The notes under the pieces: model-generated
The model's database searches: none
What the model was told of the DNA's origin: nothing
The model's input: the letters and a program-made list of their open reading frames with translations, nothing else
Position numbers and translations under genes: made by a program
Assembly: GCF_008693385.1 (NCBI RefSeq)
Contig: NZ_CP044067.1
Span: 1,738,501 to 1,802,500 of the forward strand
DNA from: Cupriavidus pauculus
GTDB lineage: Bacteria > Pseudomonadota > Gammaproteobacteria > Burkholderiales > Burkholderiaceae
DNA: 64,000 nt
Reading direction: 5' to 3'
Part shown: one piece after another, positions 46,813-57,435 of the stretch
Layout of the letters: each line of letters begins with the position of its first letter
Position numbering within the stretch: the stretch's first letter is position 1

Positions 46813-46916
46813 GCGCTCTCCTGACTCGCTGCGGTTTTGCGGGGTGAAACGACATCGAAAGCGTGATCAGAGGGCTTATATGCGCCCTCGCGCATCGATG
46901 TCACTTTGCACCGCAT

Positions 46917-46941
46917 CAAAGTTTCGTCGCTCGAAACTTTG
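46917..46941. repeat. 10-bp perfect inverted repeat between phnW and the Bug gene
   Basis: CAAAGTTTCG (46917-46926) pairs with CGAAACTTTG (46932-46941) around TCGCT. It lies 27 bp after the phnW stop and about 105 bp before the Bug gene start, both leftward. Without a T-run it is either a Rho-aided end of the phosphonate operon or an operator for the Bug promoter. Confidence 0.5.
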
Positions 46942-46968
46942 GCGAGTCAGGCACTGCGCCGGGTGGTG

Positions 46969-48036
46969 CTAGCGGCTGACGAGTTCGCGGAAACCCTGAA
47001 GCAGACGGTTCATGTCGTCGGCCGTCAGCGCGCCCATCGTGGAGATACGGAACAGCTCCGAGGACAAGCCGCCCTGCCCCGCGTAGATCACGAAGCCGCG
47101 CGTCTTCAGCCCGTCATGCAGCTGCTCGTACGTCACGCCCGCGGGCAGACGATACGCGCGCAGCACCACGGACGATTGCTCGGGCGCCCACAGCGGCGCG
47201 ATGCCGAGTTCGGCCAGCCCCGCGCGCACCTGCTCCGCCAGCGCCGCATAGCGCTGGTGACGCGCCTGCCAGCCGCCTTCGTCCTCGTACTCGCGCAACG
47301 CCTCCACGAGCGCGTAGAACGCATGCACGGACGGCGTGAACGGCGTATTGCGCTGATCCTGCAGCTTGGCCATGCGGCCAAGATCGAGGTAGTACGCGCG
47401 TTGCGCCGCCCTGGCCAGCGCATCGCGGCGCGTGACCACGAACGCCGCGCCCGGCACACCGTGCAGGCACTTGTTCGCGGTTGCCGCCACGGCGTCGATG
47501 GCCCCCGAGAAATCGATCGCCTCGGCACCGAAGCTGCTCACCGCGTCGACCAGCAGGCGCACGTTGCGCGACTGGCATAGCGCATTGATCGCCGGCAGGT
47601 CGTTGAGGCGGCCCGTCGTCGTCTCGTGATGGATTACCGTGACATGTGTGATCGACGGATCGGCATCGATCGCCGCCGCCACACGCTCGAGGTCGGGCGC
47701 GCTCTTCCAGTCGTGCGTGACCAGCGTATGCGCGATGCGATATTGCGTCGCGATCTGCGCGATGCGCTCGCCATATACGCCGTTCTGCACGATCAGCAGC
47801 TTGCCCTGTTCGGGGACGAGCGACGCGATCATGCTTTCCACGGCGGCGGTGCCGGAGCCGGTCATCAACACGGCCGACCATTGCGCGGGATTGAGCCCGT
47901 ACACGCCCAGCAGGCGCGCGCGCGCTTCATCCTGCAGATCGAAGAACTCGCCTTCGCGATGGCACAGGTCGGTCTGCAGCAGGCTCTTGCGCACGCGCTC
48001 GCTCAGCGTGACGGGGCCCGGGTTCAGCAACAGCAT
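46969..48036 (-). CDS. phnW: 2-aminoethylphosphonate:pyruvate aminotransferase
   Basis: A 355-residue fold type I aminotransferase starting MLLLNPGPVTLSERVRKSLLQTDLCHREGEF, the PhnW/AGXT start. It has MTGSGTAAVESMIAS, VIHHETTTGRLNDLP, VDAVSSFGAEAIDF and the PLP lysine in ATANKCLHGVPGAAFV. PhnW interconverts phosphonoacetaldehyde plus alanine with 2-aminoethylphosphonate plus pyruvate. In this biosynthetic setting it should run towards 2-aminoethylphosphonate. It is the last gene of the operon, after a tandem repeat. Confidence 0.93.
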   Translation of the reverse strand: MLLLNPGPVTLSERVRKSLLQTDLCHREGEFFDLQDEARARLLGVYGLNPAQWSAVLMTGSGTAAVESMIASLVPEQGKLLIVQNGVYGERIAQIATQYRIAHTLVTHDWKSAPDLERVAAAIDADPSITHVTVIHHETTTGRLNDLPAINALCQSRNVRLLVDAVSSFGAEAIDFSGAIDAVAATANKCLHGVPGAAFVVTRRDALARAAQRAYYLDLGRMAKLQDQRNTPFTPSVHAFYALVEALREYEDEGGWQARHQRYAALAEQVRAGLAELGIAPLWAPEQSSVVLRAYRLPAGVTYEQLHDGLKTRGFVIYAGQGGLSSELFRISTMGALTADDMNRLLQGFRELVSR

Positions 48037-48050
48037 CTTTGTTTCTCCGC

Positions 48051-48105
48051 TTAGTTCGTCCGCTTAGTTCGTCCGCTCAGTTCGTCCGCTCAGTTCGCGT
48101 CCGCC
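48051..48105. repeat. 13-bp tandem repeats spanning the phosphonopyruvate decarboxylase stop
   Basis: On the plus strand, TTAGTTCGTCCGC repeats at 48051 and 48064, as TCAGTTCGTCCGC at 48077, and as a longer imperfect copy from 48090. Each unit read leftward contains a stop codon (TGA or TAA) after GAAC. Because 13 is not a multiple of three, successive stops fall in different frames. Confidence 0.75.
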
Positions 48106-49283
48106 AGCTCGCGGCCCTGATCGGCCCCGATCTGACGGCCCAGCCGCGTCTTCACCTGCACCGGCGTCACCGTCGGACGCGGCAGCCCGTCGGGCGTTCC
48201 CGCGCGAATGGCGAGCCGCACGAACCGCGTACCGTCCGCGGGCGGAGCGCCCAGCACCTCGTCGATCAGGCCAAGCCGGTCGCCTTCGATCGCCGACGCG
48301 TAGCCGCACGAAGCGGCGATACCGGCAAACGAGACGTTGCGCGACACCGTCGCCTGCCCGCCCGTGGAATCGTGCGCGCCGTTGTCGAGCAGCACGTGCG
48401 TGAGGTTCGAAGGACCGTACGCGCCCAGCGTCGCGAACACGCCCATGCGCATGAGCGCGGCACCATCGCCGTCGACGGCCACCACCTTGAGGTCGGGGCG
48501 CGCGAGCGCGAGGCCCAGCGCGAACGGCGTCAGGCAGCCCATCGAGCCGACCATGTACAGCTGGTTCGGACGATCGTCGAGCGCATAAAGCTCGCGGCCG
48601 CAGAAACCCGTGGACGCCACGACGACCGTGCCTTCCAGCGGCGTGTGCGCGATCACGCGTTCCAGCGCATCGCGGCGGGTCGGCAGGTCCGCCTCGGCCA
48701 CGCCGTGCCAGTCGGCCTGCGCGGTCGCGCGCGCACGTGCGGGCAGCGCCGGCTGGGCGTTCAGCGCGTACGGCGCCACGCTGCCCTTCTGCATGATCAG
48801 CGCGTACGGACGGCCCGTGCTGTCCATGTGGGCGATCGCGCGGTCGAGCGCGGGACCGACGGCATCGGCCTCGGTCGGGAACAGCTCCCATGGAATGTCC
48901 ATGGTGTCGAGCATCGCCGGCGTGATCGGGCCCATCAGCGCGTGCTGGGGCTCGTCGGAGGCGCCGCCGGGCTGGCCGCGCCACGTGACGATCAGCAGCT
49001 GCGGCAGGCGGAACGTCCACGTCAGCGACGTGAGCGGGCTCACGGCATTGCCGAGGCCCGAGTTCTGCATCATCGTCACGCCGCGGCGCCCTTCGCGGGC
49101 CCCCTGCGTGACGCCCGCGATGAATGCCACCGCGTCGCCCTCATTCGCAGCCGACACGTAATGCAGCGTCGGGTCCTGCACGACGTAGTTGATGAACGGC
49201 GTCAGGTACGAGCACGGCACGCCCGCGTACCACTCGAAACCGCGCGCACGCGCGGCTTCGACGAACTCGACCGCCTCGATCAT
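48090..49283 (-). CDS. ppd: phosphonopyruvate decarboxylase
   Basis: A 397-residue thiamine-diphosphate enzyme, about the size of known Ppd/AepY. It has [56 protein letters not shown] (Glu and Gln/Asn at the cofactor) and the TPP motif [41 protein letters not shown]. It converts phosphonopyruvate to phosphonoacetaldehyde and CO2, the irreversible step that pulls phosphonate synthesis forward. It overlaps the PEP mutase gene by 4 bp. Confidence 0.94.
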
Positions 49284-50974
49284 CGGGCGCCCTCGCTGCC
49301 AGCGGCGAACGGCGTTTGTCCGTGCGCGAAGTCGCCTGCCAGACGGAAGTCCTCCAGGTCGTTCACGCCGCGCCAGTGGCCATGCACGTACGTCACCGCC
49401 ACCTCCTCGCCCTGCGCGACGAGCGCGTTGAGCAGGTCGGGTACGTCGAGCGAATCGAAGTCCGGACGCGCGCGCAGTTCGCCGAGCAGTTTCTGCAGCT
49501 TTGCCACGCCTTCGCCGCGCACGTTCAGCAGGCCGATCCAGCGGCCATGCGACTTGCCGTCACCGCCGTTCTCGTCGTCGGAGACCTTCCGCAGCGTGAC
49601 CTTCTGGCCGAACAGATCGCGGTTATCGGCCGACGAGGTCCACACGAAGTCGCGCACGCTCTGGTTCGATGCCGCCTTGTCCGACGAATCCGAGGAATCG
49701 ACGACCACCGTGAACGGCGCGTCGCTCTCGACGAGGTCGCGCAGGATGTAGCTGCGGAACAGCAGATCGCCGTAGGCGATCACGGTGTCGCCCTGCAGCG
49801 CATCGGCCGCGCATGCGAGCGAGGCGAGTTCGCCGGTCTGCGCATGGCGTTCGTTCACCGCGAGCTTGATGCCGGCAGCGTCGATGGCCTTGGCCTGATA
49901 GCCGCCGACCACGGTGATGTCGTTGATGCCCTGCTTCTTGAAGCCATCGACGAGATGGCGCAGCAGCGGCTTGCCGGCGATCGGCAGCATGACCTTCGGC
50001 TTGTCCTCGGTCAGCGCCTCGAGGCCCTTGCCGCGTCCGGCCGCGAGCACCACGGCCGCGCCCGGGCCCGAGCCGCCCGACAGGTAGATCTTCTCCGCTT
50101 CCGAGTATTCGTCCGCATCCTGCAGGCGGAAGATCTCGTTGACGGTGGCAATGCGGTCTTCCACATTGACCAGCGTTTCGTTCTCGTAGATGTCCTTCGC
50201 CACGGCCTGCATCGACGATGCGGCAACGCGAATCAGGTGGTTCGCCCAGATCACGAGGCTGATGCCAGCCTTGCGGTACGCATCGGTCGGCGTGCTGTAG
50301 TACTTGGTCGGCACGATCACGATCGGGCAGCGGCCGGCCCACTCGCGCGCGAAGGTCAGGATCTCGTCCGCCTTCGAGAGCTTGCTGTGGATCAGGATCG
50401 CATCGGCACCGGCCTGATGGTAGGCCTCGGCGCGGCGCAGCGCCTCGTCCATGCCCCAGCCCGCGATCAGTGCTTCCACACGTGCGACGATCGAGAAATT
50501 GTCGTCGGCCTGCGAGTCCTTGCCGGCCTTGATCTTGCCGCAGAACTCGTCCATGTCGGCCAGCGGCTGGCGCTCGCCGCCGATAAAGCTGTTGGTCTTC
50601 GGGAACTGCTTGTCCTCGATACACACGCCGGCGATGCCGCGCTGCTCGAGCTTGCGCACCAGACGGCGCACGTTGTTGAAGTTGCCGTAGCCCGTATCGC
50701 CATCCAGCAGGATGGGCAGGTCGCTGGCGTCGGCCATGAACTCGAGGTTGTCGACCACCTGGGTCCAGCTCGCCTCGTTGTTGTCACGCACGCCGAACTG
50801 GGCGGAGATCGCCAGGCCCGAGGCCCAGATGCCCTTGAAGCCCGCCTCGCGCACGATGCGCGCGGAGAGGCCGTTGTGGGCTTCCATGATGAATTCGAGG
50901 TCGTTGCTCTGGAGCATCTGGCGCAGACGGGCCGCGCGCGAGGTCGAAAGCAGGTTCGGGTCGATGGCGTTCAT
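49280..50974 (-). CDS. aepX: PEP mutase fused to a nucleotidyltransferase domain
   Basis: A 564-residue two-domain protein. Residues about 1-300 are phosphoenolpyruvate mutase with the diagnostic [15 protein letters not shown] and [20 protein letters not shown], which makes phosphonopyruvate. Residues about 308-560 form a sugar-nucleotide-type transferase: [53 protein letters not shown] and [17 protein letters not shown]. This second half resembles PntC-type CTP:phosphonate cytidylyltransferases, so it may activate 2-aminoethylphosphonate as the CMP ester. ATGA overlaps both sides. The fusion of first and last steps of head-group synthesis is notable. Confidence 0.92.
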
Positions 50975-51735
50975 TGAGCAACTCCTACAGGTCGCGTCAG
51001 TTGGGGCAGGACTTCTTCGGCGGCGCGTGTCACATCGCCAGGGAAATCGATTTCAATCCACGGCGCGCCGGTCACGTCGGCCGTGTCAAAGGTATGACCA
51101 CCTTCCAGCAGCAGGTCGCGCACCGCTTCTTCATGCGGCATCTTGGCGCGTCCGCCGTTCACATAGTCGGCCACGATCTCGGCCAGGCGGCGCGCGGTCT
51201 TCTCGTCGAAGCGGAAGAAGCCTACCGACTCGCCGATGGTGTCGTATTCGAGATCGGCCATCAGCTGTTTGCGCAGTTCCACGGGCACGCCGTTCTTCAG
51301 GCACAGCTTGACGGGCTCGTCGCCGGCCTCGAAGTCGCGGTCGATCAGCAGACGGTTGGTGCTCTCGCCCGCGACCAGTGCCTTGAGGATGCGCTCGTCG
51401 TAGAGCACATCCGCGTCCATCAGCAGCACGTCGCCGCCGCGCGTCATGGCATCGGCCACGGTATGCACGGTCAGCACGCTACCCAGGTCGTAGCGGTCAT
51501 TGATCACGATCTCGGGGCGACGGGCCAGGCTAAGACGATCGACCTCGGCTTCCACCTGCCTGGGCTCGAAGCCCAGCGCGAGCACGATGTCCTGCACGCC
51601 CGCCGCGTTGAGCATGCGTATGTGACGCTCCAGCAGCGTGGTTCCGTCGAAGCGCAGCAGGCATTTGGGGAACTGGGCCCCCGGCTGCTGCTGCAATCGC
51701 AGGCCAAGGCCCGCGGCAAGGATGATGGCTCGCAT
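50971..51735 (-). CDS. nucleotidyltransferase (sugar-phosphate/choline-phosphate type)
   Basis: A 254-residue stand-alone NTP transferase: [55 protein letters not shown], then [14 protein letters not shown] with the metal-binding Asp pair and [22 protein letters not shown]. The GLGLRL in place of GxGTR is a small variant of the nucleotide loop. Relatives include phosphocholine cytidylyltransferases (LicC) and phosphonate cytidylyltransferases. It overlaps aepX as ATGA. Two transferase domains in one operon imply either two activated head groups or division of labour. Confidence 0.82.
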
Positions 51736-51782
51736 TATTCAGTGACTCGCGATAGAAATTAAATCGGTCGGATAACCGCCCG

Positions 51783-52772
51783 TCATTCGGATGGTTCCAA
51801 AGCCGCGCGTCTGCGCTGGAACTTCCGTTCACTCAAATGCAGATACAACAGGCCCGGCAAACCCAGGATCAGTTCGCGCACGCGCTTGGCCAGCGACAAC
51901 GCCAGCGCCATGTCCGGCGGCAGACCCACCAGCGGGGCCAGCAGCAGGTACCCGCCTTCCTGCGCGCCGAGCGAACCAGGAATCGCAAAGGCCGCGCCAC
52001 GAATGGCCTGGCCCACCGACTCCAGTAACAACGCGTCCACCCAGCTCACCGGATGACCGAGGAAATGCATGATCAGCCAGACCTCGGCGGTGCCGACGAT
52101 CCAGCCGATCAGGTTCAGGAAGAAGCTTGCCGCCACACGGCCCTTCTCGCCGTAGAGCTCGCGAATCGCTTCGTCCACGGCGTCGGCGCCTACCGTCAGG
52201 CCCTTCCAGTCGCGCTTGCCGAAGACCTTCGACAGCAGCCGCAGCACGCGGCCGAACATCCCCCGGCGCTGCAGCACGACAAATCCCACCACCATCAGCG
52301 CCAGCACCGCGGTGGCGGCAATGACCGGCGTACGCTCGCCCGCCAGGCCGCCGTTGGCGCTGAACAGCAGCACGCCGCCCAGCGCGAACAGGATCTGCGA
52401 CAGCGCCTGCGCGGTCGTGCTGACCGTGATCGCCGCGGCCGCGTCGCGAATGCGCGCCCCGCGATGCGACAGGTACCGCACCATCAGCACCGGACCGCCC
52501 AGTTGACCGGCCGGCAACAGGCTGTTGACCGACTCGCCGACCCAGCGCGTCATGATCGCGTCGCGGATCTTGCCTTCGCCGTGGCGGTGCATGAGCACCC
52601 AGATCGATGCCGCATCGAGCAGCAGCGGAATCAGATGGAAGGCCGCGATGAGCGCGAGGCCCCATTTGGCGACCAGCAGCGTCGAGACCACCGCATCGAA
52701 ACCGCGCCATGCCAGCAGCGCGACGAACAGCGCCGCGCCAATCGTAAACAAAAGTACTGCAGCACGAGTCAC
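51783..52772 (-). CDS. flippase-like membrane protein (UPF0104/HpnL type)
   Basis: A 329-residue protein with about eight membrane segments of the lysylphosphatidylglycerol-synthase TM region family. It has WVGESVNSLLPAGQLGGPVLMVRYLS, the conserved SxNxLLPxxxGG-like loop, and RGAAFAIPGSLGAQEGGYLLLAPLVGLPPDMALALSLAKRVRELILGLPGLL near the end, a signature of this family. Members are often linked to lipid transport between leaflets. GTG start overlapping the oxygenase stop (GTGA). In this operon it could flip the phosphonolipid product. Confidence 0.8.
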   Translation of the reverse strand: MTRAAVLLFTIGAALFVALLAWRGFDAVVSTLLVAKWGLALIAAFHLIPLLLDAASIWVLMHRHGEGKIRDAIMTRWVGESVNSLLPAGQLGGPVLMVRYLSHRGARIRDAAAAITVSTTAQALSQILFALGGVLLFSANGGLAGERTPVIAATAVLALMVVGFVVLQRRGMFGRVLRLLSKVFGKRDWKGLTVGADAVDEAIRELYGEKGRVAASFFLNLIGWIVGTAEVWLIMHFLGHPVSWVDALLLESVGQAIRGAAFAIPGSLGAQEGGYLLLAPLVGLPPDMALALSLAKRVRELILGLPGLLYLHLSERKFQRRRAALEPSE

Positions 52773-53602
52773 GCGCGATTCTTCCCACCCGATAGCAGGC
52801 GCCGGAACACCTGACGGAAACCGAAGTACGCGACCGCATCCTTCATATTCGAAATAAGACGCAGCCACGGGCGCATGCCGGGGTCGGTCACGTACTCGAA
52901 CGTGAGCGAGACCCGGAACTCGTTGGCGCGCGCGGGCGTGATGCGGTGGCGCAGCTTGTCGCCGTCGAACAGCACGAGGCCGCCCGGCGGAATCGCGACC
53001 GAGCCCGGCTCGTCGGCGCGGTCCTTGTCACGCGTGTGCAGCTCGTAGTCCAGCCGGCACGACGATTCGTCGATGACGCCAAGCAGCACCGTGTAGCGGC
53101 GGCCGTCGTAGTAAGACGTGTCGTAATGCCAGCCGATATGGTCGCCTTCGCGCGTGTAGTAGTACAGCGCGTAGGCATGCGGATCGGTCGCGGGGCACAC
53201 CTGCAGGCGGTCGCCGGTCATCTGCTCGAGCCAGCCGATCAGCGCCTTCGAGCGATACAGCTCGGCAATGAACGGCGCATGCTCGTCGATGGTGTGCCGG
53301 CTGACGCTGCCGCCCTGCTTGTGGCCGGGCAGGTAGTTGCGGTTGATATGCGGCTGCAGTTCCCGCGCGAGCCGGATCAGCTGCGCCGTGGCATCGGGGG
53401 CGAGGAACTTGTCGAGATACAGAAACGCGCCCTGCCGCACGAAGTCTTCGCGCAGTGCCGCATTGTCGAACGTGGCGGTTTCGCGCGCGACGTCGGCGTC
53501 GGGCGTGGATACCGCGCGCGCCGCGTGCGATGGCGACGACGATGATGATGTGCCGGGCAGGGTCACATCCGGTGCGCTCGCGCGCATGGCCTGGTCAGTC
53601 AT
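52769..53602 (-). CDS. 2-oxoglutarate/Fe(II)-dependent oxygenase
   Basis: A 277-residue protein. The Fe-binding HxD is in GWHYDTSYYDG, the distal His in KLRHRITPARANEFRVSLTFEY, where the following Arg would bind 2-oxoglutarate. The layout resembles prolyl-4-hydroxylase-like enzymes (P4Hc). The N-terminal 40 residues are Ser/Ala-rich and disordered in appearance, so translation may begin later. Being inside a phosphonate operon, it could hydroxylate the phosphonate head group, as known for PhnY on 2-aminoethylphosphonate, or a fatty chain. That is inference. Confidence 0.82.
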   Translation of the reverse strand: MTDQAMRASAPDVTLPGTSSSSSPSHAARAVSTPDADVARETATFDNAALREDFVRQGAFLYLDKFLAPDATAQLIRLARELQPHINRNYLPGHKQGGSVSRHTIDEHAPFIAELYRSKALIGWLEQMTGDRLQVCPATDPHAYALYYYTREGDHIGWHYDTSYYDGRRYTVLLGVIDESSCRLDYELHTRDKDRADEPGSVAIPPGGLVLFDGDKLRHRITPARANEFRVSLTFEYVTDPGMRPWLRLISNMKDAVAYFGFRQVFRRLLSGGKNRA

Positions 53603-53609
53603 GGGTACC

Positions 53610-54278
53610 TCAGGCGTCCTTGGAATTCATCACGGGCTGGGTGCGGCGCACTACGCGCCAGTAATCCACGATGCACCATGCCGCGAAGATCGGCGCGCCG
53701 ATGGCGGCCGCCTTCAGGAATGGCGCGATGCCGTTCGTCAGCGTGACGAGCGGCAGCAGGTACAGCACGTCCTCGGTCTCGAAACCGGCGGCCGATGCCT
53801 GCTTGGTGCCGCTCTTGCCGACCATGGACTCGATGCGCATGCGCAGGAAGAAGATCAGCGCGACGGCAATGCCGGCGATCGTGCCGAGCGCGGCGGATCC
53901 GAGCGGGCCCTTATCGTCGGGGCTCGCGATCGCCACACCCATGCAGCCGAACAGCAGGATCGTGACCAGCGCGTCGGCGGCCAGATCGTAGAAGTGGCCA
54001 AACTTGCTGCCTTTGCCGCTGATGCGGGCGAGTTCGCCGTCGGTGTGGTCGACGAAATTCGACAGCACGATCAGGAACGCACCGATATTCGTCCACAGAT
54101 ACCCGCCACGTGTCAGCGCGATCGCACCGGCAAGGCCGATCAGCAGGCGGACGGTCGTCAGGTGGTTGGGCGTGACGCGGGTGTGCTTGAGGGGTCGGAC
54201 CAGGCGACGCGCGAGGCGTGCATCCCAGGTCGGCGGCAGAGGCGGCTCGTCTGGAAAATTTGTCGAATTGTTGTTCAT
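53610..54278 (-). CDS. CDP-alcohol phosphatidyltransferase
   Basis: A 222-residue membrane enzyme. It has the complete family motif D-H-T-D-G-x2-A-R-x8-G-x3-D-x3-D (DHTDGELARISGKGSKFGHFYD, LAAD), with the catalytic Asp last, flanked by about six membrane helices. Such enzymes move a phosphoalcohol from a CDP-linked donor to an acceptor. With CMP-2-aminoethylphosphonate as donor and diacylglycerol as acceptor, the product would be a phosphonolipid. It is the first gene of the operon. The 233 bp before it should hold the promoter. Confidence 0.92.
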   Translation of the reverse strand: MNNNSTNFPDEPPLPPTWDARLARRLVRPLKHTRVTPNHLTTVRLLIGLAGAIALTRGGYLWTNIGAFLIVLSNFVDHTDGELARISGKGSKFGHFYDLAADALVTILLFGCMGVAIASPDDKGPLGSAALGTIAGIAVALIFFLRMRIESMVGKSGTKQASAAGFETEDVLYLLPLVTLTNGIAPFLKAAAIGAPIFAAWCIVDYWRVVRRTQPVMNSKDA

Positions 54279-54473
54279 CCGGAAACTGTCCAGGAAGCTA
54301 GGGAGATGCTGGGGAGCAAAACGTCAAACAGTACGCCCGCGACCTGCGATTGACAAGTATCCCTTCAGACAGGGCTCGAGCGGGCGGACTCTGGCGCGAA
54401 GAATACTCCAACTCGCGGGGAGGCGTACGTAATCGGGGTGCAGGTACCGCCACTGATGGCCGTCCCGGCGATG

Positions 54474-54495
54474 TTCTTGACTATTCATTCCAAAA
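54474..54495. promoter_or_regulatory. putative TetR operator 1
   Basis: Read on the minus strand, TTTTGGAATGA is followed by ATAGTCAAGAA. This 22-bp site matches the one at 55092-55113 in all but three positions. It lies 16 bp before the TetR start, suitable for autorepression. Confidence 0.6.
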
Positions 54496-54511
54496 TAAGT
54501 ACAACGTCGAC

Positions 54512-55078
54512 ATGGCTAGACCCAAGGCATTCGACAAGGACCGCGCGCTGGACGCCGCCATCGGCGTATTCCGGCTACATGGCTTCGAAGGCACCTCTAC
54601 GGAGATGCTGACCCAGGCCATGGGGATCGGCAGGCAGAGCCTGTACGACACCTACGGCGACAAGTGGCAATTGTATTGCCTTGCCGTGGAACGTTACGCC
54701 TCGAACGAAGCGAGCGCTCACCTTTCAGCACTCCGCGGCAAGACGCGGGCCTTCGATGGCATCGCCGCAATGATTGCCCGCGTCATCGCGGAAGCGGACC
54801 ATGCCTGCCTCGGGGTCCACTCGATCTGCGAGTTCGGACACAGCCAGCCGGATCTGTCGGCGATCCATGCGCGCGCGCACCACGCGCTCACGTCGGCGAT
54901 CGCCGCGCGCGCGGCCGAGGCCCAGTCCGACGGCGAGATCGCGGCGGCGCTGACGCCCGAGGCCGTGGCCACGCATGTCATGGCCAGCTTCGCGGCAATC
55001 CGCATCGCCGCACGGGGCGGTGCGGACGCGGCGCAGCTCGACGTCATCGGGTCGATGACCCTGCGCGCCTTGCGCTGA
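54512..55078 (+). CDS. TetR/AcrR-family transcriptional regulator
   Basis: A 188-residue regulator. The N-terminal HTH reads FDKDRALDAAIGVFRLHGFEGTSTEMLTQAMGIGRQSLYDTYGDKWQLYCLAVERY, the usual TetR form with LYDTYGDK as the end of the recognition helix. The C-terminal domain has the TetR_C helices (ACLGVHSICEFGHSQPDLSAIHARAHHALTSAIAARAAEAQSDGEIAAALTPEA). I chose the ATG at 54512, where the family starts. It lies directly before a quinone oxidoreductase gene on the same strand, and the same 22-bp site occurs before both genes, so it represses both. Confidence 0.9.
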   Translation: MARPKAFDKDRALDAAIGVFRLHGFEGTSTEMLTQAMGIGRQSLYDTYGDKWQLYCLAVERYASNEASAHLSALRGKTRAFDGIAAMIARVIAEADHACLGVHSICEFGHSQPDLSAIHARAHHALTSAIAARAAEAQSDGEIAAALTPEAVATHVMASFAAIRIAARGGADAAQLDVIGSMTLRALR

Positions 55079-55091
55079 TTTTTTTGCCCAG

Positions 55092-55113
55092 TTTTGGAAT
55101 GATCATTCAAGAA
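55092..55113. promoter_or_regulatory. putative TetR operator 2 (palindromic)
   Basis: TTTTGGAATGA then TCATTCAAGAA. Inside it GAATGATCATTC (55097-55108) is a perfect 12-bp palindrome. It abuts the ribosome site (AAAGGAG) of the oxidoreductase gene, so a bound regulator would block transcription start or early elongation. Confidence 0.65.
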
Positions 55114-55124
55114 AGGAGAAACCG

Positions 55125-56093
55125 ATGAAGGTCATCGCAATGCAACGCCCGGGCGGGGCGGACGTACTCCAGCTCGATACGCTGCCCGATCCGGTGGCCG
55201 GCCAGGGCGAGGTGCTCGTCGACGTGGCTGCGGCCGGCGTCAATTTCATGGATATCGGCGTGCGCGGCGGCGAATTCTGGAAGGAGTATGCGTACCCGAA
55301 GCGCCTCGGCGTCGAAGGCGCAGGCCGTGTGGCCGCCCTCGGCCCCGGCGTCACGGACCTCGCCGTCGGGCAGCGCGTGGCGTGGGTCTACGTGCCCGGG
55401 AGCTACGCCGACCGCATCGTCGCGCCGGCTTCGGCGCTAGTCCCGATTCCCGACGATATCGACGATCGCACGGCGGCCGCCCTGATGATGCAGGGCATCA
55501 CCGCCAGCCACTTTGCCACCGACTTCTATCCAGTACAGCCCGGCGACGTCGCACTGGTCCACGCGGCGGCGGGCGGCGTCGGCCAACTGCTCTCGCAGAT
55601 CATTCGCCTGCGCGGCGGCAGCGTCATCGGCCGCGTTTCGTCGGCGGATAAAGTCGGCGCGGCCAAAGCCGCAGGCGCGGCACACGTGATCGTCGATACC
55701 ACCGGCCAGTTCGCGGACGAGGTCCTCCGGCTCACGGACGGCGAGGGCGTGCACGCGGTGTTCGACGGCTCGGGTCCCACGACCTTCAAGGACTCGGTGG
55801 CCTCGCTGCGCCGTTCGGGCACGTTCTGCTGGTACGGTCCGGTACTCGGCGGCCCCGGCCCGATCGACATCATGAGCCTGCCGCGCAGCATCAAGATCGG
55901 CTATGCGGTCTTCTTCGACCACATCCACACGCCTGCACTGCTGCGCGAGAGAACGAACCGCCTGTTCGACTGGATCCGCAAGGGTCAGTTGCGCGTGAAC
56001 ATCGGCGGCGTATATCCGCTGGCGGAAGCCGGCAGGGCCCACGCGGACATGGAAAGCCGCACCACCACGGGCAAGTTGCTGCTGGTGCCGTGA
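55125..56093 (+). CDS. zinc-free NADPH:quinone oxidoreductase (QOR-type)
   Basis: A 322-residue medium-chain reductase. It starts MKVIAMQRPGGADVLQLDTLPDPVAGQGEVLVDVAAAGVNFMDIGVR, a QOR-like start without the zinc Cys/His set, has the nucleotide loop VHAAAGGVGQLLSQI (AxxGVG) and GSGPTTFKDSVASLRRSGTFCWYGP. QORs reduce quinones or unsaturated carbonyls with NADPH. TetR/QOR pairs commonly respond to electrophiles. It is convergent with cynS. Confidence 0.9.
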   Translation: MKVIAMQRPGGADVLQLDTLPDPVAGQGEVLVDVAAAGVNFMDIGVRGGEFWKEYAYPKRLGVEGAGRVAALGPGVTDLAVGQRVAWVYVPGSYADRIVAPASALVPIPDDIDDRTAAALMMQGITASHFATDFYPVQPGDVALVHAAAGGVGQLLSQIIRLRGGSVIGRVSSADKVGAAKAAGAAHVIVDTTGQFADEVLRLTDGEGVHAVFDGSGPTTFKDSVASLRRSGTFCWYGPVLGGPGPIDIMSLPRSIKIGYAVFFDHIHTPALLRERTNRLFDWIRKGQLRVNIGGVYPLAEAGRAHADMESRTTTGKLLLVP

Positions 56094-56121
56094 CGGCTGC
56101 GGCTGGATCGCGGCGCGGAGA

Positions 56122-56601
56122 TCAGAACGGCTTGGTCGGCAAGTACTTGCCGTCGAGCGTGATCACCGCGCGGTGGCCGCCTTCCGGGTCTTCCACTTTC
56201 TTGATATCGAGCTTGAAGTTGATCGCGCTGATAATGCCGTCGCCGAACTTCTCGTGCACGAGCACCTTCAGCGTGGAGCCGTAGACCTGCACCATCTCGT
56301 AGAAGCGATAGATGGTCGGATCGGTCGGCACGCCGCCCGGAATGCTGCCGCGGACCGGGATGGTCTGTAGCAGGCGGATGGCGTCGTCATCGAGTTCCAG
56401 CCGCGCGGCGACGATCTTCGCGACATCGGCCGGCAGCGGATGCTGGCCCAGCAGCGCGGCGGTCACGAACGCGAGGCTCAGGCCCGTGCCTTCGTTGATC
56501 TGCTCGAACGTCAGGCCCTTGCGGTCCTTGGCGTCGATGATGACGTCCGTCAGGTTCTGGCGGGTGGTCTGGGTGACTTGCGATTGCGGCGATTGCGGCA
56601 T
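56122..56601 (-). CDS. cynS: cyanase (cyanate hydratase)
   Basis: A 159-residue enzyme with the whole cyanase profile: an N-terminal helical domain ([26 protein letters not shown]) and the C-terminal [39 protein letters not shown], which contains the catalytic Arg, Glu and Ser, and the end [10 protein letters not shown]. It decomposes cyanate with bicarbonate to ammonia and CO2. AAGGAG precedes the ATG. It follows cynT by 81 bp. Confidence 0.97.
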
Positions 56602-56682
56602 GAACGGCTCCTTGGCAGGTAGGAAGACAATGACGCGCCGGCGGTGGGTCCGCGTTGGCGAGTCCGGTCGGGGTTGCAGGGA

Positions 56683-57333
56683 CTAACGGGGGGTGATACG
56701 GGCCGCGGCCACCGTGCGGTGGTCGGCGAGGGAGACAAACTGCTCGGTCACGCCGTCGAACGCATCGACCGATCCGGTGCCGATGTCGTAGACCCAGCCG
56801 TGGATCGTCAGGCGGCCTTCTCCAAGCGCCTTCGCCACGGACGGATGCGTCCTCAGGTTGGCGATCTGTGCCTTCACGTTCTCGCGCACCATGCCATCGA
56901 CGCGCGCCTTGTCGTCGGCATGCTCGCGCGAGGCATTGATGGCCTTGGCGGCATCGGCATGGCGCAGCCAGCCGGCTACCTGCGGCATATGGTCGAGACA
57001 CGTGCACTTGGCCACCGCGGTCATCGCGCCGCAGTCCGAGTGTCCGCAAATCACGATATCGCTCACGCCCAGTCCGACCACCGCATACTCGACGCTCGCC
57101 GAGACACCGCCGGGCTGCACGCCGTACGACGGCACGATATTGCCGGCATTGCGGATCACGAACAGGTCGCCTGGCTCGCGCTGGGTCAAGAGTTCGGGCA
57201 CCACGCGGCTGTCCGAACAGGCAATGAACAGGGTCGGCGGCTTCTGGGTCGTGGCCAGGCGCTTGAACAGTTCGGACCGCTTCGGAAACTCTTCGCGCTG
57301 AAACTTCAGGAAACCGTCGATCAGGTCTTGCAT
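56683..57333 (-). CDS. cynT: beta-class carbonic anhydrase of the cyanate locus
   Basis: A 216-residue enzyme (E. coli CynT 219). Zinc ligands are in FIACSDSRV (Cys, Asp/Arg) and [10 protein letters not shown] (His, Cys); NAGNIVP and [10 protein letters not shown] are also conserved. It returns CO2 to bicarbonate for cyanase. I chose the ATG at 57333 with GGAGCGAGCC upstream; the longer frame adds 27 residues of poor quality. It is divergent from cynR and upstream of cynS, as in E. coli. Confidence 0.93.
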
Positions 57334-57435
57334 GGCTCGCTCCATCGGGACGTCGCTAATTCGTGTCGCTAATTCGTTGATGCAAGCATCGTGCTTCAGA
57401 GCCATAACGTCCAAGACCAGTTTATTATGTTTTCG

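Follow-up and report, generated by a model that had tools for sequence, protein, structure and literature searches.

The stretch of DNA analyzed here (the window; 64,000 nt) comes from contig NZ_CP044067.1 of Cupriavidus pauculus, whose genome, confirmed as Cupriavidus, comprises 3 contigs (7.06 Mb). We performed a detailed inspection of a seven-gene operon on its minus strand (54278-46969), which is predicted to produce 2-aminoethylphosphonate (AEP), link it to CMP and transfer it to an alcohol. Judging from the genome context, we give about an even chance to the operon making a phosphonate-bearing hopanoid. An earlier note on this DNA, prepared from the sequence alone, had placed a leftward operon at 46969..54278; its coordinates, strand and named genes all agree with our analysis. 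The gene order (5′ to 3′) is CDPOH-2OG-HpnL-NTase2-PepM-Ppd-PhnW, with intergenic spacing of 7, -4, 47, -4, -4 and 53 bp, respectively. The predicted products are as follows.

53610..54278, minus strand: CDP-alcohol phosphotransferase, 222 aa, operon gene 1; predicted to transfer AEP from CMP-AEP to a lipid alcohol (PF01066, motif, fold)
52769..53602, minus strand: 2-oxoglutarate (2OG)-Fe(II) oxygenase with a BesD/HalB/HalD fold and a hydroxylase-type HxD triad (PF23169, residues, Foldseek)
51783..52772, minus strand: HpnL-type membrane protein, predicted flippase (TIGR03476)
50971..51735, minus strand: NTase2, PntC-like cytidylyltransferase, predicted to act on AEP or hydroxy-AEP (6pd1 match, residues in register)
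49280..50974, minus strand: phosphoenolpyruvate (PEP) mutase (approximately residues 12-298) fused to a nucleotidyltransferase-like domain (approximately 306-560) with an atypical signature (TIGR02320, motif, 1m1b)
48090..49283, minus strand: phosphonopyruvate decarboxylase (Ppd), thiamine pyrophosphate-dependent (TIGR03297, GDG...N)
46969..48036, minus strand: 2-aminoethylphosphonate aminotransferase PhnW/AepZ, last gene (TIGR03301, ATANK)

Proteins were assigned to families with Pfam and NCBIfam models, and scores are given below as score/curated cut-off. The three enzymes of AEP biosynthesis (Ppm, Ppd and AEPT), correctly recognized in the earlier note, are all over cut-off and contiguous in the one operon: (i) PEP mutase (TIGR02320, 403.3/319.55), whose best solved relative is 1m1b (4.3e-128) and which carries the signature EDKXXXXXNS at residue 120, (ii) Ppd (TIGR03297, 442/312.5), with the motif GDG...N at residue 272, and (iii) PhnW (TIGR03301, 412.9/360.8), with the motif ATANK at residue 185. 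The score of PhnW with TIGR02326 is under cut-off. The PEP-mutase fusion shares 96-97% identity with its counterparts in Cupriavidus plantarum and C. pampae.

A MobA-like NTP_transf_3 domain (PF12804) is present in two proteins of the operon (55.7 and 51.0, cut-off 27). The earlier claim of two nucleotidyltransferase domains is correct in number, but the two are not equivalent. The best solved relative of NTase2 is PntC of Treponema denticola (Tde-PntC; 6pd1, 8.6e-11, residues 2-246). Its signature is GLGLR...PK, with Leu at the T/S place of GXG(T/S)R...PK, and its LRK and E are in register with Tde-PntC. Equivalents of Tde-PntC R15, K25, K153 and E196, residues whose roles are described in PMC6697681, are all kept in 48 of the 50 loci having NTase2 (see below); the exceptions are L058, in which the gene is cut off, and L060, with Asn in place of Lys. 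The domain fused to PEP mutase reads LAA[GST]RGxx...PK[VI]M at this signature in almost all of the 80 loci compared. It retains PK in 80/80 and has Arg at motif position 2 in 78/80, whereas the catalytic Arg of GXG(T/S)R is found in 0/80. We have not filed this domain (residues 306-560 of the 49280-50974 protein) as PntC; it may bind or use a nucleotide, and its activity should not be assumed. In genome G380 (loci L096 and L120) the operon is split, with NTase2, the transferase, the oxygenase and HpnL on contig C4, and the PEP-mutase fusion, Ppd and PhnW on C5. Because of the PntC match and residues, the lack of the Arg in the fused domain, and the location of NTase2 with the transferase block in G380, we assign AEP activation, as a predicted role, to NTase2 and none to the fused domain. 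Fused domains are taken as evidence of nucleotidyl activation in PMC6697681, and its count of them could need a caveat in this clade.

The CDP-alcohol phosphotransferase matches PF01066 (CDP-OH_P_transf, 48.6/22) and, as previously noted, its motif DxxDGxxARx8GxxxDxxxD is complete (D77 to D102); the motif residues are invariant in the 13 sequences of our transferase profile (A1). The best Foldseek match of its AlphaFold2 model (pLDDT 87.3) is AF2299 (E 4.4e-06, TM 0.69), followed by the Archaeoglobus IPCT-DIPPS and mycobacterial phosphatidylinositol-phosphate synthases, with weaker matches to cholinephosphotransferase and CEPT1; one matched entry is a diacylglycerol complex. By both fold and sequence, the transferase is nearer to AF2299 and IPCT-DIPPS than to CEPT1. 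DIPPS takes a CDP-linked polar donor, and cholinephosphotransferase and CEPT1 act on diacylglycerol. The modeled fold would suit a CDP- or CMP-linked polar donor, while neither fold nor gene order identifies the acceptor. Since AF2299 and IPCT-DIPPS are the closest relatives, use of ordinary CDP-diacylglycerol is less likely a priori. The operon shares with AF2299 and IPCT-DIPPS the pairing of a cytidylyltransferase with a CDP-OH transferase; it differs in supplying AEP rather than inositol phosphate, and in having two separate genes in place of a fusion. Two CDP-alcohol transferase genes occur within one phosphonate cluster in L064, L066, L067 and L106, and in the first three the second copy is only approximately 37-41% identical to the Cupriavidus transferase.

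The product of the third gene had been described as flippase-like. It is a membrane protein, here corrected to HpnL-type (TIGR03476, 339.9/195.65). We moved its start from GTG 52868 to GTG 52772, where the gene overlaps the stop of the oxygenase; the former would be an alternative start for a longer product.

The 2OG-Fe(II) oxygenase, also identified correctly at the outset, matches PF23169 (HalD, 43.8/26) and is under cut-off for 2OG-FeII_Oxy_3 (24.3, cut-off 27). Its facial triad consists of H159xD161 and H219; H159 and D161 are invariant among 10 relatives and H219 is present in at least 90% of them. The best Foldseek matches of the model (pLDDT 74.4) are HalB, BesD and HalD, and also a BesD-like hydroxylase; several of the matched structures were solved with lysine or ornithine. 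Halogenases of the 2OG-Fe(II) class have HxG/A in place of HxD. Because the sequence has HxD and not the halogenase HxG, the enzyme is expected to be a hydroxylase rather than a halogenase. In L077, L104, L105 and L106 the slot between NTase2 and the transferase is filled by a PhyH protein, and the PhyH proteins of L077, L064 and L106 score 208, 187 and 198 bits, respectively, with the methylphosphonate hydroxylase model NF052437, whose cut-off of 500 none of them reaches. The presence of two unrelated oxygenases in one slot suggests that they do the same job, phosphonate hydroxylation; L064 and L067 hold both kinds, which speaks against simple replacement.

We scanned named genomes for the PEP-mutase fusion and, from 225 relatives, kept the best 80 loci, many of which are cut by contig ends. 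The search for the same gene order in related genomes, proposed in the earlier note, revealed all seven genes in the same order in 25 of these 80 loci, which confirms that the operon is real and not a chance neighborhood. The hosts of the full order are Cupriavidus, a Ralstonia-labelled relative, Paraburkholderia sp. NMBU_R16, Trinickia, Pandoraea, Caballeronia/Burkholderia, leaf-symbiont 'Candidatus' species, and two metagenome-assembled genomes (MAGs), one of Betaproteobacteria and one of Sinobacteraceae. NTase2 is present in 50/80 loci and the transferase in 35/80, all 35 of which also have NTase2. Given the split in G380, the Paraburkholderia loci without NTase2 may simply miss the other half of the operon. 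PEP mutase is over cut-off in only 28 of 60 Cupriavidus genomes, and the operon is therefore accessory in this genus. Two leaf-symbiont 'Candidatus' loci are damaged: the oxygenase of L059 is split into two pieces, and L060 showed no complete transferase motif and an NTase2 without its Lys; these defects fit the genome decay of symbionts.

In part of the relatives the operon adjoins hopanoid genes, counted here as hpnN, hpnA, hpnH, hpnB, hpnI, hpnG or the squalene-hopene cyclase (SHC) gene within the fetched stretch (strict limits, which leave out a weak HpnI match of L074). Such genes are present in 17 of the 80 named loci, belonging to Pandoraea, beta- and gammaproteobacterial MAGs and cyanobacteria, and in 13 of the 25 loci labelled as lying outside Burkholderiales (L064-L088). 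All 17 are among the 50 loci with NTase2, compared with 0/30 of those without it, a zero confounded by split operons. The gammaproteobacterial MAG locus L064 has the order PhyH, hpnN, transferase, hpnA, HpnL-like, second transferase, oxygenase, NTase2, PEP mutase, Ppd, PhnW, dxs, hpnH, hpnB; its HpnN (TIGR03480), HpnA, HpnH, HpnB and DXS are over curated cut-offs, and its HpnL is under (152.2, cut-off 195.65). In both L064 and L085 the transferase gene is flanked by hpnN and hpnA, and the neighboring ends either overlap or are separated by 14 bp. The order in L077 (Nostocales HT-58-2) is hpnI, radical SAM, transferase, PhyH, NTase2, PEP mutase, Ppd, PhnW, hpnH, hpnA, with HpnI, HpnH and HpnA confirmed by curated models. 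In Pandoraea (L047) the same seven genes are followed by dxs (842.7/465.95), hpnN (1247.5/1100) and hpnH (430.9/225.05, cut by the stretch end). Curated models also confirmed HpnN in L054, L085 and L101, HpnI in L078 and L080, HpnI, HpnA and HpnH in L066, HpnN and HpnA in L081, and HpnH in L082 and L088; the cut-off of the stricter HpnN model NF052374 (1100) is reached in L047 and L054, and not in L064, L081, L085 or L101. In cyanobacteria, the radical SAM protein encoded close to the transferase is B12-binding (L077:6645-8282, also L066, L074, L078 and L080), and that of L077 is weakly similar to PhpK P-methyltransferases (77.4 bits, cut-off 600).

Comparable arrangements were found in further genomes. 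One contig of G533 carries dxs-hpnH-hpnB-SHC-hpnG-hpnA followed by hpnN-HpnL-PhnW-Ppd-PepM-NTase2-PhyH-transferase; HpnH, HpnA and HpnL (353.1/195.65) are over cut-off, and an SHC piece (430.0/431.1), HpnG (172.7/187.1) and HpnN (632/751.85) are under it. One contig of G402 has hpnN (1006.3/751.85)-transferase-HpnL (286.9) with a divergent PhnW gene (473/296) beside them, and a second contig has PEP mutase, NTase2 and PhyH. In the fragmented genome G349 the transferase copies, PEP mutase and SHC are on separate contigs. The CDP-OH protein of L105 gave no NCBIfam match at 1e-15.

The association with hopanoid synthesis was also observed at the genome level. For this analysis we used the A1 profile (up to 7 candidates scored per genome) and an even sample of 398 Pseudomonadota genomes, with limits of our own choice (transferase E≤1e-20, SHC E≤1e-40, PEP mutase E≤1e-60). 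The transferase was detected in 15 genomes, SHC in 50 (47 over cut-off) and PEP mutase in 21 (19 over cut-off). All 15 transferase carriers have SHC, vs 50/398 overall (Fisher 3.9e-15 by genome); the corresponding values are 9/9 vs 29/212 by genus (5e-9) and 4/4 vs 17/approximately 87 by family (0.001; family number taken from tool labels), and these probabilities, like the one given next, are uncorrected for phylogeny. As a control, we compared the 21 PEP-mutase genomes with one another: SHC is present in 7/7 of those with the transferase and in 2/14 of those without it (G198 and G259; p 3e-4). With PEP mutase over cut-off the counts are 7/7 vs 1/12, the PEP-mutase match of G198 being under cut-off. 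When SHC over cut-off alone is counted, it is found in 12/15 carriers vs 47/398, the other three being fragmentary matches in family f39 (see below). An order-level sample of 399 genomes contained 9 transferase carriers, of which four were new (G473, G522, G533 and G561); all four have SHC, in two pieces in G533. Of 31 genomes selected for having the transferase or NTase2, 30 contain SHC, which scores over cut-off in 26 of them; the L086 MAG is the exception. Of 36 genomes searched for HpnH, 34 have it over cut-off, C. pauculus among them; it is absent from G147 and the L086 MAG.

The C. pauculus genome encodes SHC at C3:2430662, adjacent to HpnG, and has the genes for HpnN, HpnH and HpnB at approximately C3:2468000-2481500; HpnN, HpnH, HpnB and HpnG are over cut-off, and an HpnA-like sequence was detected in the same region with tblastn. 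With SHC, HpnG, HpnH, HpnB, HpnN and a probable HpnA encoded, the presence of an acceptor can be predicted. The only HpnL match of the genome is that of the operon. Thus, in a genome otherwise encoding side-chain hopanoids, the single HpnL is provided by the phosphonate operon. In its HpnL, and in adjoining hpn genes in the 17 relatives, the operon resembles hpn gene clusters; it differs in having neither SHC nor hpnH as a neighbor in C. pauculus.

The following pathway may be proposed. PEP mutase, Ppd and PhnW, all of well-known enzyme families, would convert PEP to AEP, the head group would probably be hydroxylated by the 2OG oxygenase, and NTase2, as its PntC match and residues suggest, would form CMP-AEP. 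The transferase would then pass the phosphonyl moiety of CMP-AEP on to a bacteriohopanepolyol hydroxyl, a step proposed from genome context only; HpnL would flip the product and HpnN could carry it to the outer membrane. The succession of AEP synthesis, CMP activation, transfer to an alcohol, transport and probable hydroxylation had been foreseen in the earlier note and is supported by families and motifs. Of its lipid product, the transfer to an alcohol stands, while the acceptor probably has to be revised, the context favoring a hopanoid over diacylglycerol. We consider the hopanoid acceptor, suggested by co-occurrence with its control and by co-localization in part of the relatives, to be evenly balanced between right and wrong. 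In its fullest form, held tentatively and at slightly below an even chance, the proposal is that phosphonohopanoids are bacteriohopanepolyols with (1-hydroxy-)2-aminoethylphosphonate attached to a hydroxyl by a hopanoid-specific transferase and flipped by HpnL, and that they belong to a wider module of Proteobacteria and Cyanobacteria, which places phosphonate or phospho-inositol head groups on hopanoids and gives HpnL its function.

Several observations weigh against a hopanoid product. HpnL and HpnN could serve another lipid. Except for HpnL, there is no hopanoid core gene beside the C. pauculus operon, as there is in the relatives L047, L064 and G533; SHC and HpnH lie on the same contig approximately 0.64-0.69 Mb away. 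Hopanoid genes are missing from the fetched stretches of 63/80 named loci, and from those of 33/50 loci with NTase2, and none of the 17 adjoining loci is from Cupriavidus. Leaving HpnL aside, hopanoid genes were not found near the transferase in G473 (HpnL-like 144.5/195.65), G522, G561 and the genomes of the window's family (f1), nor, with HpnL-like genes also set aside, in the stretches L095-L100, L102-L104, L106, L107, L109, L110 and L112. The A1 profile was built after the hopanoid link had been noticed, and partly from hopanoid-adjacent loci. The carriers are clustered: 8 of 15 belong to one family (f39, with a divergent transferase), 5 to f1, and one each to f50 and f77. The L086 MAG has NTase2 and PEP mutase, with neither SHC nor HpnH over cut-off. 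A comparison of SHC with PEP mutase within Cupriavidus was rejected, as SHC is present in 57/60 genomes and the genus gives no test. Where Tde-PntC has Glu104, NTase2 has Asp (LMDADVLY), as in LicC, and its substrate may differ; Glu104 contacts the AEP amine, and Ari-PntC, the other characterized PntC, is closer to LicC (PMC6697681). This residue lowers, and does not remove, the predicted PntC assignment. Moreover, in the alphaproteobacteria studied in PMC12583986, no obvious additional candidates were reported in the vicinity of hpn clusters.

The same facts can be read in terms of a phosphono-glycerolipid, a C-P analogue of phosphatidylethanolamine formed by Kennedy-type logic through transfer of AEP or hydroxy-AEP from CMP to diacylglycerol, in which case the hopanoid genes would be connected only through shared transport (HpnL, HpnN) or a joint function in the membrane. 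Such a product comes near to what the earlier note had in mind. The absence of adjoining hopanoid core genes from the Cupriavidus operon and from most of the named loci is in line with this reading, as is the partial likeness of the transferase fold to cholinephosphotransferase and CEPT1, and the phosphonolipid label has been published, with DAG, AAG and HAEP among the abbreviations (PMC5987646). It does not predict the SHC association, either in the whole sample or in the PEP-mutase control, or the placement beside hpnA, hpnB, hpnH and hpnI (hopanoid side-chain/head-group genes), and the transferase is nearer to AF2299 and IPCT-DIPPS than to CEPT1; we regard a glycerolipid as possible, though rather unlikely.

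Transfer of AEP to a polyprenyl-linked or lipid A sugar, giving a phosphonoglycan, appears improbable. No glycosyltransferase, LicD or polymerase was found among the seven operon genes with Pfam and NCBIfam, and in G380 the tailoring half (transferase, oxygenase, HpnL and cytidylyltransferase) forms a unit separated from PEP mutase, even if cell-surface tailoring is considered the purpose of most phosphonate capacity in bacteria (PMC6697681) and the hopanoid-associated glycosyltransferases HpnB or HpnI occur in some clusters. Burkholderia phosphonate antibiotics exist (PMC12871164), and in other bacteria PhnW also catalyzes the first step of AEP degradation (PMC8154272), but a small diffusible phosphonate or AEP catabolism would leave the membrane transferase and HpnL without evident use; PEP mutase and Ppd are biosynthetic, PhnW is over TIGR03301 and under TIGR02326, and we hold both to be very improbable.

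A parallel to the proposed hopanoid modification was observed in family f39, in which PEP mutase is present in 0/8 genomes (E≤1e-50) and a distant relative of the transferase is encoded in open reading frames of 354-451 residues, with the motif DGCDGELAR in five stretches. In five of the six stretches fetched (L107, L108, L110, L111 and L112), this relative is paired with inositol-phosphate-synthase-like and IPCT-like genes; L109, 4.3 kb long, has neither. In L108, where these two proteins are both under cut-off (455.4/638 and 126.4/580, respectively), the transferase relative lies behind SHC-hpnG-hpnN-hpnA-HpnL, of which SHC (803.1), HpnN (965.8), HpnA (498) and HpnL (331) are over cut-off and HpnG (177/187.1) is under; L111 has HpnL (311.4) and part of HpnN. 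This looks like the same logic with CDP-inositol replacing CMP-AEP, and the product is possibly an inositol-phosphate hopanoid.

The source of the pathway adapted for a Nostoc cluster from a lichen is said to be Yu 2013. The earlier note knew of no characterized pathway of this composition, a view that we have abandoned: the gene set was published in 2018 (PMC5987646) and the CMP-AEP chemistry in 2019, with PntC enzymes forming CMP-AEP (PMC6697681). According to the Fig. 7 legend of PMC5987646, the Nostoc gene set, which has a Burkholderia homologue, is for phosphonate lipid synthesis by an adapted pathway; it shares with the Cupriavidus operon a CDP-alcohol phosphatidyltransferase, OG-Fe(II) oxidase, NTP transferase, pepM, ppd, AEP aminotransferase and hpnL. 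In contrast to our proposal, the abbreviations of that paper name DAG and AAG as lipids, and its main text is without the words hopanoid or hopene. The pnt pathways of PMC6697681 have in common with the operon the CTP activation of AEP by a MobA-like enzyme, and a ppm-fused and a separate nucleotidyltransferase in one cluster; they have LicD-like or glycosyltransferase genes, whereas the Cupriavidus operon has a CDP-alcohol phosphotransferase and HpnL. Another Burkholderia phosphonate is encoded by a different cluster (PMC12871164).

A link between PEP mutase and hopanoid genes has also been reported: several Roseomonas species (Acetobacteraceae) have a PEP mutase gene linked to that for hopene cyclase, and an 'undiscovered terpene-phosphonate' was suggested (PMC8776678, 2021). 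This is another family; the available portions of the paper mention neither the transferase, the cytidylyltransferase nor HpnL, and do not tie the linkage to the Burkholderiaceae operon. Among the matches listed in our literature search, only this paper joins the terms hopanoid, phosphonate and aminoethylphosphon. In the literature searched, no work was found joining bacteriohopanepolyol with phosphono, or Cupriavidus with phosphonolipid; judged by titles, the papers on bacteriohopane with phosphonate include none on phosphonohopanoids, and those on hopanoid with CDP-alcohol phosphatidyltransferase deal with membrane lipids in general. Thus, the phosphonolipid label is already published, and a hopanoid acceptor tied to the transferase, cytidylyltransferase and HpnL goes beyond the print found. 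The biosynthesis and roles of surface-tailoring phosphonates are described as almost unknown (PMC6697681), the functions of HpnA, HpnB and HpnL as not established, and hopanoid derivatives serve as biomarkers in ecological and geoscience studies (PMC12583986). If true, our proposal would add a lipid class with a C-P bond of which we found no report, would give HpnL a role, and names genes for a direct test (SHC, transferase).

The genes surrounding the operon were also inspected. Upstream (54350-57414 of the window) there is a divergent gene for a TetR regulator (probable start approximately 54512), followed by oxidoreductase-like, cyanase-like and carbonic-anhydrase-like genes, the last three named by reading the sequence. 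TctC, CoA-transferase, TetR, oxidoreductase and cyanase genes were considered as operon members and rejected; among the 80 loci, matches to the oxidoreductase and cyanase are confined to L009 and L063, which are also the only ones with TctC1 beside PhnW (CoA-transferase was not searched for). Just 3′ of PhnW (46880-46975) a 10-base perfect inverted repeat with a 5-base loop and no T run was found by eye, which is perhaps a terminator stem.

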